NCBI GenBank assembly: GCA_016215105.1
Contig: JACRLJ010000106.1
Span: 1 to 64,000 of the forward strand
Length of the DNA: 64,000 nucleotides
Source of the DNA: Candidatus Hydrogenedentota bacterium
GTDB lineage: Bacteria; Hydrogenedentota; Hydrogenedentia; Hydrogenedentales; SLHB01
Direction: 5' to 3'
Shown here: piece after piece, positions 34,347 through 60,888 of the stretch
Layout: each line of letters starts with the position of its first letter
How positions within the stretch are numbered: the stretch's first letter is position 1
The notes under the pieces: model-generated
What the model was told of the DNA's origin: nothing
The model's input: the letters and a program-made list of their open reading frames with translations, nothing else
Databases searched by the model: none
Made by a program: the position numbers and the translations under genes

Positions 34347-34368
34347 CACTTTGCGTAGGTCTCGCCCC

Positions 34369-35375
34369 ATGACCACCCCCGCGCTCCGCATCGCCATCGA
34401 CGCCAGTTGCGCCATGGAAACCCCCATGACCGGCGTAGGCTACGCCGCGCTCAATCTCCTGCGCGCCCTCTGCCGCAGCCCTCACGGATTCGATCTCAGA
34501 TTGTTCGGCACGCCGGACCGATCAACCCAGAACGCGCTCGACGATCTCCGTCCCCACTTTTCTACCTGGTACATTCGCCAAAACGCGCGCCAGCTCAAAT
34601 ACTTCCTTTGGCCCAGCCTGAACTGGCCGCCCATCGAATGGTTCTGCGGCGGCGTAGACATCGCCCACAACCTGTTTCACCAACTCCCCGCCGCGCGCAA
34701 CGCCCGCCGCATCGTCACGATCCACGATCTCTCATTCCTGTTCATGCCCGAGGTACACACGAAGCACAACGTCCAGAAGCAAACTCGCCTGGTCCGTCAC
34801 GGCGCGCGCCATGCCGACGCCATTGTCGCCGTCTCGGAACAGTGCCGCCACGAAATTATCGACACGCTGGGCGTCCCGGAAGATCGTGTGTACGTCGTAA
34901 GAAACGCCGTGGACCACACCGAATTCGCCGGCGCCCTCGATACCCCGCGGACCGAATCACTCAAGAAGCAACTTGGCCTCACCCACGAATACCTCATCCA
35001 CCTTGGCACGCTCGAACCGCGCAAGAACATCCCCCAACTCCTGCGCGCATACAACCGCCTCCGCGCGAAAATCGCCGACTGCCCCCAACTCCTCCTCGTC
35101 GGAAAACGCGGCTGGCTCTACTCGAAGCCATGGCTGCGGGTACGCCGGTAATCTGCTCCGACATCCCCGTCCTCCGCGAAGTCGCCGGTGATACTGCCAC
35201 CTACGCAAATCCAAAAGACGACGATGACCTCTATGCCGGTCTGGAAACCGCCATCCTCGAACCCGCCGCTGCCCGTGCCCGCGCGCAAACCGCCCTCGCC
35301 CGAGCCAAGTCCTTCACGTGGGACAACAGCGCAGACGCGTTGGCCCGCCTATATCGAACTCTCGTCTCAAAATAG
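34369..35375 (+). pseudogene. Broken group 1 (GT4) glycosyltransferase with internal deletion and frame change
   Basis: The first part (34369-35151, about 260 residues) has the GT4 N-terminal domain and linker, including IVTIHDLSFLFMP, DAIVAVSEQCRHEI and LIHLGTLEPRKNIPQLLRAY, but ends abnormally just after LLLVGKRGWLY. The missing family C-terminus continues in another frame from about 35118 (LLEAMAAGTPVICSDIPVL) to the stop at 35373-35375. Family members have roughly 60 residues between these motifs, so a deletion of perhaps 150-200 nt that is not a multiple of three probably removed part of the donor site. The junction reads GGCTGGCTCTACTCGAAGCC. The truncated product should be inactive, unless the break is an assembly error. 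Confidence 0.75.
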
Positions 35376-40996: not shown

Positions 40997-42017
40997 ATGA
41001 AGGCCATCCACATCAACGAAACCGGCGACCTCAATCGCCTCGTCTACGGCGAAGTCCCTTCTCCTCGCCCCGCGCCTGGAGAAGTCGTTATCAACGTTCG
41101 CGCCGCCGCCCTGAACCATCTCGATATCCGCGTGCGCCGCGGTAGGCCCGGTGTTCCAATTCAAGCCCCTCACGTCCTCGGTAGCGACGCATCTGGAACC
41201 ATCTCCGAACTCGGCCCAAGTGTGACCGGCCTGCATATCGGCGACGAGGTAATTCTGAACCCCGGCGTGAGTTGCGGCCATTGCGAGTTCTGTCTGCGCG
41301 GCGAGCAAAGTGAGTGCCCCGCTTTCGGAATCGTCGGCATGAGCCGCCCCGGAACCTTCGCCGAGCAGGTTTCCGTTCCCGCCGTAAACGTCCACCCCAA
41401 ACCTGCTCACCTCAACTTCGAGGAAGCCGCCGCGCTCCCCCTAGCCTACGTTACCGCATGGCGTCTCATCATGACGCGAGGCGGTCTCAAGGCCGGTGAA
41501 ACCGCGCTCATTCACGGTATTGGAGGCGGCGTGGCCATCGCCGCGCTTCAACTCGCCAAGCTCGCCGGCGCAACCGCTATCGTCACCTCGTCGTCGGACC
41601 ACAAACTCGCGCGGGCTCGCGCCCTCGGCGCCGATCACGGCGTCAACTACCGCAAGGTCGGGGACATCGCCACCGAAATAAAGAAGCTCACCGATGGCCG
41701 CGGCGTCTGACTCCGTCGGCGGCGCGACGTGGTCCGTCAATTTCGGTTCCGTGCGGCGCGGCGGACGAATCGTCATCTGCGGCATAACCGCAGGGGCCGA
41801 AGTCACCGCCAACTTGTCCCAGCTCTATTGGAACCAGATTTCCGTCATCGGCTCGACCATGGGTTCCAGCGAAGACTTCCGCAGCATGGTCGCCGCCGTC
41901 TCCGCCGCGCAACTGAAGCCCGTCATTGATTCGAAGTACGCCCTGCGCGATGCGAAGGAGGCCCAATCCCGCATGGAATCCGGCCAACAATTTGGAAAAC
42001 TGGCCCTCACTCCGTAA
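40997..42017 (+). pseudogene. Broken zinc-type alcohol dehydrogenase (MDR family)
   Basis: The first frame (40997-41710, 237 residues) has a good GGAGG site and the MDR N-terminus: NHLDIRVRRG, GSDASGTI, the structural-zinc-like cysteines CGHCEFCLRGEQSEC and the start of the NAD(P) site (GIGGGVAIAALQLAKLAGA). It stops at DGRGV followed by TGA. The rest of the domain continues in another frame from about 41705 (DSVGGATWSVNFGSVRRGGRIVICG) to the stop at 42015-42017. Relatives have about four more residues between DGRGV and DSVGG, so a deletion of roughly 10-14 nt is likely. The enzyme would be inactive. A sequence error cannot be ruled out. Confidence 0.75.
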
Positions 42018-42749: not shown

Positions 42750-42797
42750 TGTCATTCTGAGCGGTAGCGAAGAATCCGCTACCAACGTGCGAGAGCC
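42750..42797. repeat. TGTCATTCTGA-type dispersed repeat, copy 1
   Basis: This 48-nt block matches 50137-50184 at 41 of 48 positions. It begins TGTCATTCTGAGCGGTAGCG and includes the 7-bp stem GGTAGCG/CGCTACC. Similar TCATTCTGAGCGAAGCGAAG repeats occur in intergenic DNA of many phyla. The role is unknown. Confidence 0.7.
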
Positions 42798-42882
42798 TTC
42801 CGCAGGAAGCAGGGCGTCTGGTATGCGCGGACTAAAGCATTCGCAAGGCCATACCCCGCAGGACGCGTCTGGAGGTGACCAA

Positions 42883-44013
42883 ATGGTAACAGACCAACTC
42901 GCTGGCAATGATACAACGCCGCCCGCGCCCTCCATTCTCGTGGTCGAGGACAATATCGCCAGCCAGAGAATTGCCGTTCTAATGCTCCAAAGGCTCGGCT
43001 GCCGTTGCGACGTGAGCCACAACGGGCTGGAAGCCATCACGGCTACTCTCGCGCGCGGCTATGACCTGGTATTGATGGACCTGCAATTGCCCGACATGTG
43101 CGGAGCGGAAGCCGCCCGGCAAATCCGCCAGAATGAAAAGGACGGCGTTCGTACCCCGATCGTGGCCATGACTGCCGAGGCGCTTCACGAAGATCGCGAG
43201 AAATGCGTCAAAGCCGGCATGGATGGCTTCCTGTCAAAGCCGGTCTCACTGGACGCCTTGCGCGAAGCGCTGGCCCGCCACCTATGCGTCAGATCTCCCG
43301 CCAAGTCTCGTCCGAGCGAAACCGGTGCCTCGGAGCTTGTCGATATCGCGCGCATTCGCAGCGCCGCCAACGGCGATATCGCGCTCGAACGCGAACTCAT
43401 AGACCTTTTTTTGGCCGACTCCGAGACACGACTCGACAGTGTCGAGCTAGCTTTGATGGCCCGCAACATCACAATCGCCCGACGCGAGATCCACACCATC
43501 AAGGGCGCCAGTGGCAGTGTCGGCGCGAACGAAATGCAGCAACGAGCGCTCGATCTCGAAGGCCTGAATGACGTTGAACTGGCCGATACGTCACATCCAG
43601 CGTTGCGCGCGCTAAACATGGCGTTTGCGGCCACGCGCGAGTTCCTCCTGCACCACATCGAGGAACGAGAGGCTGCGTCCTCCCAAGTCGCCGACTCGCG
43701 CATCGAGACGGTCTTCGCCTACGGCACGCTTCTGGACAGCGCCGTGCAGGTCTCATTGTTTGGCAGGATATTGACGGGCGCCTCCGATGCGCTCACGGGA
43801 TATAAGGCGGCCTCGGTAACCCAGGACGGTCAAACCTATCCGAATCTGGCGCCAGACAAGGACGGACGAATTAACGGAGTGCTCCTTGAGCTTACTCCTC
43901 ACGAACTAGCCACGGCCGACGCCTACGAAGGTGAGCCCTATTCACGGATCAGAGTTCTAACGGACGCCGGAAGAACCGCCTGGCTATACATCGCCGGCGC
44001 CCCCGGCGATTGA
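42883..44013 (+). CDS. Response regulator-HPt-gamma-glutamylcyclotransferase-like fusion
   Basis: A 376-residue protein with a near-perfect ribosome site, GGAGGTGA at 42871-42878, before the ATG at 42883. Residues about 15-135 are a receiver domain (ILVVEDNIASQ, phospho-acceptor D66 in LMDLQLPDM, K119 in LSKPVS). Residues about 145-245 are a histidine phosphotransfer domain with H204 in REIHTIKGASGSVG. Residues about 275-376 are a GGCT/AIG2-like fold with YGTL at 280-283 and the likely catalytic E349 in YEGEPY. GGCT enzymes release 5-oxoproline from gamma-glutamyl amines. Phosphotransfer control of such an enzyme, or use of its fold as a ligand sensor, are both possible. No histidine kinase is adjacent; one hybrid kinase lies at 57568. 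Confidence 0.88.
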   Translation: MVTDQLAGNDTTPPAPSILVVEDNIASQRIAVLMLQRLGCRCDVSHNGLEAITATLARGYDLVLMDLQLPDMCGAEAARQIRQNEKDGVRTPIVAMTAEALHEDREKCVKAGMDGFLSKPVSLDALREALARHLCVRSPAKSRPSETGASELVDIARIRSAANGDIALERELIDLFLADSETRLDSVELALMARNITIARREIHTIKGASGSVGANEMQQRALDLEGLNDVELADTSHPALRALNMAFAATREFLLHHIEEREAASSQVADSRIETVFAYGTLLDSAVQVSLFGRILTGASDALTGYKAASVTQDGQTYPNLAPDKDGRINGVLLELTPHELATADAYEGEPYSRIRVLTDAGRTAWLYIAGAPGD

Positions 44014-46630: not shown

Positions 46631-46693
46631 CCTATCCGACCTATCCGACCTATCCGACCTATCCGACCTATCCGACCTATCCGACCTATCCGA
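46631..46693. repeat. 9-bp tandem repeat, seven perfect copies of CCTATCCGA
   Basis: CCTATCCGA is repeated seven times without error from 46631 to 46693, then decays (CCCGTCCC). The unit is a one-base relative of CCTGTCCGA at 31773-31808. It lies 58 nt after the rhamnosidase-like gene in intergenic DNA. Confidence 0.95.
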
Positions 46694-46761
46694 CCCGTCC
46701 CAGTACGCCCGCGCTCGATGAGCGCGAGCCGCCGGGGCGCCAGAAATGCAGAGAGCGGGAG

Positions 46762-50136: not shown

Positions 50137-50184
50137 TGTCATTCTGAACGTAAGTGAAGAATCCGCGGCCAACGTGCGAGCGCC
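50137..50184. repeat. TGTCATTCTGA-type dispersed repeat, copy 2
   Basis: It matches 42750-42797 at 41 of 48 positions. It lies upstream of the membrane protein gene in a 586-nt spacer. Confidence 0.7.
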
Positions 50185-52312: not shown

Positions 52313-53714
52313 CTAGTAGTACGCCTTGAACCGAGGCCAGAGCGCATCAAGCCTCGCTACCGGCCTGCGGCACAGGAATATCGGACGTCCGGTCCTCGAC
52401 GCATTGCGCCACGGGTTGGGCGCTTCCGCCACGACACGCACATCTTGAAAGCAAGCTTTGAGCAAATCTTCCTTGTAACCGAATGCAATGACGCACTCTC
52501 CCGTCGCCCCTTGCGATCCCCAAAGGTAGTAGGAATTGTTACCGCTAATGGCGTCCGGAAGCCCCATTTCCCGCCCCAGGACGTTCACATTTGACGCGCT
52601 GTCGTATTCGTTCGTCAAGATGACGCACCGCCTCTGTTCTTCCGTGTCTAGACCCCGGTACACGCCGAGATACGCCTGAAGTTCCTCGGGCCGGCGAAGT
52701 TGGTAGCGAAAGTCGAACGTCAGATCCGACGGGTCGTCTACCAATCGCAGCCGATAGCCCCGCGCGCGCATAGTATCCCCGCAGCCGCGTAAGGCGCCGT
52801 TCGAGCAGCACGGCGCCGCCCGCCATGAGCATGGGGTAGGCTGGGGCGAGGTAATATATCTTGGCCTTGAATGCCAGCATGACGGACAATACCGTGATGA
52901 ATATCCATCCAGTAAGGCGATAAGAACGTCCTGCCTCACTCGTAAGGAAATAGACCAAGCCCGCTATCCAGACAATCGCTCCGAAAACGTTCAAGAACAC
53001 GAACTGCGCGAGAAGGAATTCAAAGCGGGATGTACGTTGCATCGCGTTAGCGTTGATGCTTCGAACGAAGTCGAGCGTCGCCCAATCGTGCTGGTATTGC
53101 CAAAGAAGATTGGGCAGGAAGATTAGAAACGAGATTACCGCCCCAAGCCACGGCCAAGCCGTAGCCAGGTCCTTTCGTCGGTGCGTGAGAGCAAGCCCAA
53201 CCGCCATGCCGGTCCCCAGAAAGAGAGTTGTGTGCTTATTGAGAAGCGATACGCCCGCGAGCACGCCAATCGCTAGCCACCATCGCGGCTCATCGCGCTT
53301 TTCGAGAGTTACGAGGAGATGGACGGCTATAAGCCAGAAGAGCACTTCGAAACAAGGGATATTCAGGAAGGCGCCGAAGCGAACCATCATCGGAGCGCAC
53401 ACGAAGCTTAGCGCCGCCAGGAATTCGCCAAACAAACCAGCCCCCAGCCTTCGCGCCAGCCAACCGGTAAGTATGCAGCTCACGCCCAGCGCCAGAGCAG
53501 GAAAAAGCCGCAACGCAAACACGTTCACACCCATCAACTCAGTGGCAAACCGCGCGGCCAGCGGAACGAATGGCGGGTGGTCTACGTACCCCCACGCCGG
53601 CCTCTCTCCACACGCGATGAAATAGAGCTCGTCGCCGTGGAATCCGTACTGCCGATTCACCAAGAGGTGAAAGATAAAGAGACCAATCCCCATGGCGCCT
53701 GCACACCAAGGCAT
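52313..53714 (-). pseudogene. Broken GT39/ArnT-like membrane glycosyltransferase
   Basis: The first frame (from 53714) has the family N-terminus: GFHGDELYFIACGERPAWGY with the acidic residues of the active loop, then YVDHPPFVPLAARFATELMG and seven or more membrane helices up to FKAKIYYLAPAYPMLMAGGAVLLERRL. Near 52770-52790 it loses sense and ends at 52545. The family C-terminus (AYLGVYRGLDTEEQRRCVILTNEY, LPDAISGNNSYYLWG, LDALWPRFKAYY) continues in another frame to 52313. Relatives have some 50-60 more residues, including a helix, at the join, so a deletion that is not a multiple of three has probably inactivated the gene. Intact members transfer a sugar or aminosugar from a polyprenyl carrier in the periplasm. 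Confidence 0.72.
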
Positions 53715-53928
53715 TCTCTCAAGGGAGTTGGTCCTGACCTCGCCTCTCAAAGAGGTTCTCCCCCTGTACGCATCGAGTCCATAGCGCGGCAGCTCAGGCC
53801 AGCCACGACATTGACTAATCCCGAGATTCGAGCATTCCTCAGGATTCGCGATAACGGCACGGATGGTCGTCTCATGGTAGCCATCGTGCCGGTACTATAC
53901 GAGACTGTTGGCGCCCAAACAAAGGTAG

Positions 53929-57567: not shown

Positions 57568-60500
57568 GTGAGCCTCGATAGGAGCGGCGGACTCGACCAC
57601 GCCGAACAAGACGAGACGCTGGCCGGGCTGAGGGCCACCGTATTGAACTGGATACTACGGGCCGCGGCAATCGGCGGCGTCCTGCTGGTGGCTAACGGCA
57701 TCTTCGATGAGTTGAGCGAACACCGAGGCGTTACAACCATCATCATTTATCTCGTCTGCTATGCCGCCGTAGTTGTTGCGGCGGTGGGCAAGCGCCTGGG
57801 CAATCGCATCCGGGGCGCAGTGTTTCTCCTTGTTTTGTACACCTTGGCAGGCTCCGAACTGTGGTTCTTTGGGCTCACCAGCATCACAAGCCTCTACCTG
57901 TTCGCGTTCGTCATGTTCTCCGGAATTCTCCTCGGACTCGAGGTGGGCTTGGCGGCCTTTGTTGTATCAATGTTAACGATGGGCGCCGTCGCCTGGCTCT
58001 TCCTGTCGGGAGTGTGGACCTACGATGGCCGATCCAATGTTCCCCTGACCACCGCAATTATGCCCTGGGTGACGTCCGCCATGTCGCTCGCCTTTACCTC
58101 GGGAGCCGCACTCATTTCGTTCACGCTGATCCTGAGGAGCCTGGATCGTAGTATGCGATCGGCGCGTCAATCGCTGGAGGACCTCCGAAACGAGATACGT
58201 GAGCGGGAGCGGATCGAGAATACGGTGCGCCGCGGCAAGGAGCGGTTCCGTTCGTTGATCGAGAATTCGTCCGACGTAATCGTATTGACGGACACGGACG
58301 GCGCGATACAGTACGTCAGCCCCGCCGTGGAACGTGTTCTCGGATACCCTCCGGTCCAGTACGCCGGAATGAATTTGTTCGAATGCATGTATCCCGATGA
58401 CCTCGTCAGCACACGGGAATTGTTCAATCGCTTGCTCGACGACCAGTCGAATATCGCGCGGACGTTCGAGTGCCGCTTGCGCCACGGAAATGGGAGTTGG
58501 CGCATGGTTGAAGCCGTAGGAAAAAGCACGGAGGAACCCGAGGGAAGGCGCTCGATCGTATTCAACTTTCGTGATGTGACCGATCGCAATCGCGTGGCGG
58601 CCGAGCTTGAACACATCTATGCCCATGCGCGCTGTCTTCTCTGGCACGCGGACGTCGCAATGCGCGACGGAGAATACGTATGGTCTATCGACGTGCCCAA
58701 CGTAGACGCCGCGCAGCGCTATCTGCCCTTGGAGATTAAACCCGGTCAAAGCTACGTCGTCGCCCTGGCCGAAAACCGGGCGCAATTCGACGGACAAAAC
58801 GAACGCATTCTGGCCGCGTCCACCCGCGCCTTTGAGGAAGGACGCCCAAGTTATCACCACGAATTCGCGTGCCGACGCAGCGACGGGGAAATCCGGTGGC
58901 TATACGAAGACGCCTACATTCAGGTCATAGCCGAGCGCCGCTGGCGCGTCGTGGGCGTCTGCACCGACATCACCGAACGCAGACAGGCCGAAGAAGCGCT
59001 GCGGGAAAGTGAATCGGAATTGCGCCAGGTAATCGATCTCGTCCCGCACTCCATCTATGCAAAGGATGAAGAAAGCCGGTTCATTTTTTGCAACCGGCGC
59101 AGCGCTGAACTCATGGGCTCCACCCCGCAAGAAGCCGTGGGGAAAACTCAGTTTGAACTCACCCCGATCACCGCCGAGGCCGAAATTCTCGTGGCCGAAG
59201 ACAGAGAGGTCATCCAGCGCCAAACGCCCATTTTCGGTCGCGAGCATGTCTACACCGACCCCCAGGGCGTGGAGCATGTCGAGGAAGTCTCGAAAATACC
59301 GTTCACCACGCGCCGTTCCCACGGTGTGGCGGTGCTCGGAATATCGGTGGACATTACCGAGCGCAAACGCGCCGAAGAGGAACGGGTGCGCCTCATGTCG
59401 GCTATCGAGCAAGCCGCGGAAACCATCGTCATCACCGATACCGCCGGCGCCATTCAATACGTCAATCCCGCCTTCGAACGAAACACGGGCTACGCGCGTG
59501 ACGAAGTCATCGGACGAAACCCGCGTGTGCTCAAGAGCGGAATGCACGACGAAACTTTCTACGCCGAAATGTGGGATACGATCTCGCGCGGCAACGTCTG
59601 GATTGGCCGGACTATCAACAAGAAGAAAGACGGCGCCTTGTTCACTGAAGAGGCCACCATCTCACCCGTGCGCAGCGCCACCGGACAAATTGTCAACTAT
59701 GTCGCCGTCAAGCGCGATATTACGCATGAGGCGGAGCTCGAGGCCCAGCTTCGGCAGGCGCAGAAGATGGAATCCGTCGGAAGGCTCGCGGGCGGAGTCG
59801 CCCACGACTTCAACAACATGCTGAGCGTAATTATGGGCAATGCGGAATTGGCCTTGGAGGATGTCGATCCCGCCCAGCCGCTCCACCACAGGCTCGAGGA
59901 AATCCGGTCGGCCACCCGGCGCTCCGCCGATCTCACGCGGCAACTCCTGGCCTTTGCCCGCATACAGACCGCAACGCCGCAAGTGCTCGATCTGAACGAG
60001 GCCGTGCAGGGAATGTTGAAAATGCTGCGGCGCCTAATCGGTGAAAACATTGATCTCGCCTGGATGCCGGGTGCAGACCCCTGGTCGGTCAAGATCGACC
60101 CATCCCAGGTTGACCAAATACTGGCCAATCTGTGCGTCAATGCCCGAGACGCCATCGACGGCGTGGGCAAAGTGACTATCGAGACGGAAAACGTCGCGCT
60201 CGACGAGACCTATTGCGCCGATCGAATGGGGTCAGTTCCCGGCGACTACGTCATGCTCGCCATCAGCGACGACGGCTGCGGCATGAACGCGGACACGCAG
60301 TCCCACATGTTCGAGCCCTTCTTTACCACCAAGGAAGTCGGACAAGGCACCGGACTCGGACTCTCCACCGTGTACGGCATCGTGAAACAGAACGGGGGCT
60401 ACATCGATGCCTACAGCGAGCCGGGAATCGGTACAACCTTCAAGATCTATCTGCCGCGATTCGCCGGCGAGACTCCGGCTGCGGCTTCGGCCACTTCCGC

Positions 60501-60888
60501 AAGACTGCCGCTTGGCCACGGGGAAACCGTCCTGCTTGTCGAGGACGATCCCGCGCTCCTGTCGCTCTGTACCGGAATGCTCCAACGGCTGCAATACACC
60601 GTGCTGACCGCCGGCAAGCCCAGCGATGCGATACGCCTAACGGAGACCCGCGCCCAATCCATCGCCCTGCTCATTACGGATGTGATCATGCCCGAAATGA
60701 ACGGAAGGGAACTGGCGCAACAACTCACCGCCATTCAACCCGGCCTCAAATGTCTGTACATGTCCGGCTACCCCTCCGACGTGATGGCCTCCGGCGGTCT
60801 CCTCGACGAAAACGTGGAATTCCTCCAGAAGCCAATCTCAATCTACAACTTGGCCACCAAAGTCCAACAAGCCATGACGCGCCAATAA
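57568..60888 (+). CDS. Membrane-bound hybrid sensor histidine kinase with multiple PAS domains
   Basis: A 1106-residue protein starting with GTG, with GGGAGGA about 7 nt upstream. Five or six N-terminal membrane helices (residues about 28-195) form a sensory membrane part. Then come roughly four PAS domains (about 220-345, 350-480, 490-610, 620-735; for example SSDVIVLTDTDGAIQYVS and AETIVITDTAGAIQYVN). HisKA has H746 in GGVAHDFNNMLSV, and the ATPase has N and G boxes (NLCVNARDAIDG, GQGTGLGLSTVYG). A C-terminal receiver has D1038 in LLITDVIMPEMNG. It is divergent from the sigma factor gene. The cognate output is not adjacent; the REC-HPt protein at 42883 is a conceivable phosphorelay partner, but only by inference. 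Confidence 0.93.
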   Translation: MSLDRSGGLDHAEQDETLAGLRATVLNWILRAAAIGGVLLVANGIFDELSEHRGVTTIIIYLVCYAAVVVAAVGKRLGNRIRGAVFLLVLYTLAGSELWFFGLTSITSLYLFAFVMFSGILLGLEVGLAAFVVSMLTMGAVAWLFLSGVWTYDGRSNVPLTTAIMPWVTSAMSLAFTSGAALISFTLILRSLDRSMRSARQSLEDLRNEIRERERIENTVRRGKERFRSLIENSSDVIVLTDTDGAIQYVSPAVERVLGYPPVQYAGMNLFECMYPDDLVSTRELFNRLLDDQSNIARTFECRLRHGNGSWRMVEAVGKSTEEPEGRRSIVFNFRDVTDRNRVAAELEHIYAHARCLLWHADVAMRDGEYVWSIDVPNVDAAQRYLPLEIKPGQSYVVALAENRAQFDGQNERILAASTRAFEEGRPSYHHEFACRRSDGEIRWLYEDAYIQVIAERRWRVVGVCTDITERRQAEEALRESESELRQVIDLVPHSIYAKDEESRFIFCNRRSAELMGSTPQEAVGKTQFELTPITAEAEILVAEDREVIQRQTPIFGREHVYTDPQGVEHVEEVSKIPFTTRRSHGVAVLGISVDITERKRAEEERVRLMSAIEQAAETIVITDTAGAIQYVNPAFERNTGYARDEVIGRNPRVLKSGMHDETFYAEMWDTISRGNVWIGRTINKKKDGALFTEEATISPVRSATGQIVNYVAVKRDITHEAELEAQLRQAQKMESVGRLAGGVAHDFNNMLSVIMGNAELALEDVDPAQPLHHRLEEIRSATRRSADLTRQLLAFARIQTATPQVLDLNEAVQGMLKMLRRLIGENIDLAWMPGADPWSVKIDPSQVDQILANLCVNARDAIDGVGKVTIETENVALDETYCADRMGSVPGDYVMLAISDDGCGMNADTQSHMFEPFFTTKEVGQGTGLGLSTVYGIVKQNGGYIDAYSEPGIGTTFKIYLPRFAGETPAAASATSARLPLGHGETVLLVEDDPALLSLCTGMLQRLQYTVLTAGKPSDAIRLTETRAQSIALLITDVIMPEMNGRELAQQLTAIQPGLKCLYMSGYPSDVMASGGLLDENVEFLQKPISIYNLATKVQQAMTRQ

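Follow-up and report, generated by a model that had tools for sequence, protein, structure and literature searches.

A gene encoding a three-domain fusion of a receiver (REC), a phosphotransfer domain (HPt) and a gamma-glutamyl cyclotransferase/AIG2-like domain (GGCT) was identified at 42883..44013 (+) of the window, which is the whole 64,000-nucleotide stretch of Candidatus Hydrogenedentota contig JACRLJ010000106.1 analysed here. With a probability of roughly 0.55, this is a real lineage-specific fusion in which a short stand-alone GGCT-like gene of the same family became the C-terminal domain of a REC-HPt phosphorelay protein, working according to the model set out below. The open reading frame (ORF) starts with ATG and is open throughout, encoding 376 amino acids plus a stop, and its translation gives matches to three Pfam domains. 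An earlier note on this DNA had listed these coordinates and this length together with D66, K119, H204, YGTL at 280-283 and E349, and each was found at its position. The good ribosome site described there was also recovered, as a Shine-Dalgarno-like GGAGGTGA read from the sequence at 42872..42879 (+), a few bases 5' of the ATG. The surroundings of the gene yielded neither a sigma-70-like promoter nor an intrinsic terminator, which is a weak indicator for such an organism. Pfam scores of 87.3 bits (Response_reg), 45.4 bits (Hpt) and 46.7 bits (GGACT) were obtained; because each is well over its curated cut-off, the three-domain assignment is far beyond chance. Profiles, alignments and fold evidence all back the reading of three domains with intact key residues, and the covalent joining of a receiver to an enzyme domain in a single ORF depends on the assembly being correct.

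The receiver domain occupies aa 18-130 (42934..43272, +) and was assigned by its Pfam match (PF00072, 1e-24), by alignment and by a receiver fold in the AlphaFold model. It carries the acid pair, phospho-acceptor Asp (D66), Thr/Ser and Lys (K119) of such domains, and the alignment refined the earlier reading by placing the acid pair at E22-D23 and the conserved Thr at T97. In the AlphaFold model of the full-length protein the receiver is the only confident domain, with pLDDT mostly >85, and the relative placement of the domains carries no confidence. The HPt domain was located at aa 171-236 (43393..43590, +) by Pfam (PF01627, 9.5e-12) and by an Hpt search of the organism's own genome. Its phospho-acceptor H204 lies in HTIKGASGSVGA, where the HxxKGxxxxxG motif reads HTIKGASGSVG; the helices were predicted with low pLDDT, the final one running on to about aa 264.

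No HisKA or HATPase_c domain was matched by Pfam in the fusion protein, so that it does not class as a hybrid histidine kinase. Nearly all REC-HPt pairs in the related-genome loci that were fetched form the end of long frames that carry another receiver further upstream, a layout resembling that of hybrid kinases. The REC-HPt half sits on a long branch in the tree and has no settled placement; the HPt alone is sister, in the HPt tree, to the stand-alone HPt of an order-mate (G002, loci L071/L081) with moderate support (88/85). No kinase gene adjoins the fusion gene. The only kinase among the scanned window genes is a hybrid kinase at 57568-60888, 13.5 kb away, and no evidence of a partnership between it and the fusion protein was seen.

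The GGCT/AIG2-like domain, at aa 277-371 (43711..43995, +), was assigned by Pfam (PF06094, 5.8e-12), invariant alignment columns, PDB fold matches and the tree, and contains Y280-G-T-L283, D346, Y348, E349, Y353 and R355. Similarity to GGCT after residue 270, whose absence had been named beforehand as a refutation, is therefore present, and the YGTL/YGSL loop and the catalytic Glu that mark this group within the GGCT fold are found as Y280GTL283 and E349. The domain is of a short form: of the 120 positions in the Pfam profile it covers 1-102. Among 13 aligned relatives, no variation is seen at Y280, G281 or E349 and almost none at L283, and position 282 is occupied by Thr or Ser. A sequence search of solved structures with the last domain matched two AIG2-like proteins from plants, at 2e-5 and 8e-5. 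An AlphaFold model of this domain, built on a shallow alignment of phage cyclotransferases, had a mean pLDDT of 88.5 and a pTM of 0.80; a mixed alignment for folding was dropped, its GGCT part being misaligned. The 25 best PDB matches of the model (probability 0.97-1.00) are all GGCT-superfamily or related structures, including AIG2-like, human GGCT, ChaC2, mouse and human GGACT and the C-domain of allophanate hydrolase, and among the matches shown none outside this group rose above 0.2. The catalytic site of mouse GGACT (A2LD1) includes Tyr7-Gly8-Thr9-Leu10 and Glu82 (PMC2954230). It is improbable that the fold instead serves, without catalysis, to sense a ligand or mediate an interaction and so tune the phosphorelay: fold members do occur within other proteins among the PDB matches (the allophanate hydrolase domain and a Paulinella transit-peptide part) and this short form lacks the final profile positions, but the domain has kept YGTL and a catalytic Glu equivalent to E82 of mouse A2LD1 (PMC2954230), as have the stand-alone relatives.

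The fused domain is the sole GGACT match of its genome, and such a match was found in 24 of the 68 genomes of the phylum. In the tree, the fused GGCT falls inside a clade (99/97) that also holds stand-alone copies of six genomes of its family, next to the copy of genome G054 (96/75). The single genomic copy and this supported nesting indicate that the gene added to the receiver-HPt module was the family's own, and the last domain shares a common origin with the stand-alone genes of the family. It is 37-47% identical to seven stand-alone copies and lies on a long branch (0.73) within the family clade. The stand-alone copies have 23 invariant positions, of which the fused domain retains 20, the catalytic ones included; the altered three (V330I, V368L and L360T) are in none of the catalytic motifs. 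The gene neighbourhoods of stand-alone GGCT in eight family genomes have nothing in common with the window, and viral contigs yielded only distant phage GGCTs. Genome G049 of the same family has a REC-HD-GYP-like gene and, 51 bp further downstream in the same orientation, a stand-alone GGCT (L061:7072-8613, -); the receiver protein is a different one, and this proximity is a lead only.

Whether the join itself is genuine was considered from its immediate sequence and its surroundings. The linker, about aa 263-276 (43669..43710, +), contains no stop and no possible start codon in any frame, and ATG, GTG and TTG are absent in every frame between 43628 and 43743. Several stand-alone relatives start, according to the alignment, a few residues ahead of FAYGTLL, so that no single sequencing indel can be concealing a separate GGCT gene here; the last domain has no independent start. 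Codon use, GC and GC3 are even over the three segments, and codon use and GC resemble those of the neighbouring genes. Three other genes of the window appear to be broken by internal deletions or frameshifts: a GT4 glycosyltransferase (34351-35375, +), interrupted near 35110, its catalytic domain seemingly incomplete; a zinc-binding dehydrogenase (40997-42017, +), interrupted near 41708; and a PMT_2-type gene (52313-53750, -), interrupted within 52663-52896. They could be pseudogenes of natural origin or errors of the assembly; if deletions are common here, one of them, natural or from assembly, could likewise have made the join. An assembly or sequencing artefact, in which in silico joining linked a REC-HPt gene to a GGCT gene, either a neighbouring or an unrelated one, would fit with these broken genes and with the occurrence of the fusion in one genome only, a draft of 171 contigs; it is nevertheless quite unlikely, as the join lies well inside a 93.9-kb contig, in frame and within a linker of even GC and codon use, the GGCT half comes from the same bacterial family, and no start ahead of it would allow a single indel to restore a separate gene. 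The earlier note had named a lone occurrence together with a chimeric join as grounds against the fusion; the domain order was indeed found in no other genome, and a chimeric join was not shown.

Repeats were observed in the surroundings of the gene. A repeat of the form GTCATTCTGAGCG-N0-4-GCGAAGAATC is present at 42750-42776 (+) and 50137-50163 (+), with 34 exact copies genome-wide and 0 matches to a reversed control, and many of the copies form inverted pairs about 84 bp apart, resembling REP/BIME elements. The intergenic region 46631-46695 holds a perfect 9-bp tandem array of CCTATCCGA in 7.2 copies.

Recurrence of this domain order across independent lineages, which would have spoken for a real system, was sought without success. 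An HPt-GGCT query was run against 386 genomes of relatives and other bacteria, 386 and 397 of two other phyla, and 133 of a third, about 1,290 distinct genomes in all; it returned no other protein matching both halves, in a search with one genome per species, a one-subfamily query and the best <=7 matches per genome, which rare fusions could escape. PF06094 gave well over 100 matches in 386 genomes, and neither receiver nor HPt was found when most of the long frames among them were scanned with both profiles. No place covering 80% of the fusion protein was present in 72,556 plasmids. Long frames in genomes G143, G194 and G282, among others, were considered as second fusions and rejected, having no receiver or HPt; the GGCT domains of the other genomes examined are stand-alone or fused otherwise, and a conserved REC-HPt-GGCT family is not supported.

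Other fusions of the domain were encountered. One 387-aa ORF (L077:2121-3284, G143) apparently joins an RsmI-like rRNA methyltransferase, assigned by sequence only, to a GGCT domain at the C-terminus, GGCT is C-terminal to DUF488 at L089, and in two genomes of one genus (G1112 and G919) GGCT is followed in one frame by an SGNH/GDSL-type hydrolase, recognised by motif only (L119:916-1851, -, and L120:916-2031, -). Fusions to RsmI-like, DUF488 and SGNH-type proteins indicate that lone fusions of the GGCT domain are not rare; the domain looks prone to fusion, and the REC-HPt-GGCT instance looks lineage-specific. It is possible to read the fusion as real and the cyclotransferase as an uncoupled passenger that works as the stand-alone gene does in the relatives, its attachment to REC-HPt having no regulatory meaning. 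These unrelated partners, the single occurrence of the order and the differing neighbourhoods of the stand-alone genes agree with such a passenger, which we still regard as unlikely: D66, K119, H204 and E349 are all kept and no part is visibly decaying, although coupling is not thereby shown.

Receiver Asp residues are phosphorylated by kinases, HPt His residues exchange phosphoryl groups with receivers, and GGCT proteins use a catalytic Glu to cleave gamma-glutamyl compounds to 5-oxoproline. For the lineage-specific fusion preferred here, we infer phosphotransfer, catalysis, substrate and coupling as follows. A histidine kinase encoded elsewhere in the genome would phosphorylate D66; D66 would exchange the phosphoryl group with H204 in the attached HPt, and another receiver would take it up or be drained of it. 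As the enzymatic output, the cyclotransferase would act on gamma-glutamyl amines or peptides, its activity or partner contacts tracking the phosphorylation state. That a phosphorelay intermediate directly controls a gamma-glutamyl cyclotransferase in this way, coupling two-component signalling to gamma-glutamyl amine or peptide turnover, is a tentative and rather doubtful proposal. If the domain is active and controlled, gamma-glutamyl cyclotransferase would join the metabolic enzymes under receiver control, and this would hint at the function of short AIG2-like proteins in bacteria, few of which have, to our knowledge, a known substrate. At present there is one example, a well-formed fusion from a single draft genome.

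Response regulators with a metabolic enzyme fused to the REC domain form an accepted class (PMC5847659). The fusion protein resembles these in having a receiver covalently linked to a metabolic-enzyme-like domain, but here the output is GGCT/AIG2-like and an HPt lies in between; no report of a REC-HPt-GGCT architecture or of a GGCT output was found in the open literature searched, the main output-domain reviews aside. The best NCBIfam similarity, over aa 5-226, is to the C-terminal REC-HPt of hybrid histidine kinases of the ArcB and BarA type, in which the order is alike, as it is in related genomes, whereas the fusion protein is without a HisKA/HATPase match, has its own ORF and ribosome site, and scores far under the equivalog cut-offs. 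The HPt is 42% identical to the stand-alone HPt of G002 (L071/L081), which is by contrast a single-domain protein of 118 aa. With the short GGACT/AIG2-like (PF06094) proteins of the same family, the last domain has the motifs FAYGTLL and DxYEGxxY in common at 37-47% identity, but in those relatives a gene of its own encodes about 95-105 aa, and here the domain is fused. The kind of protein, a receiver with a metabolic enzyme, is a known one, and the putative GGCT output is the new element.
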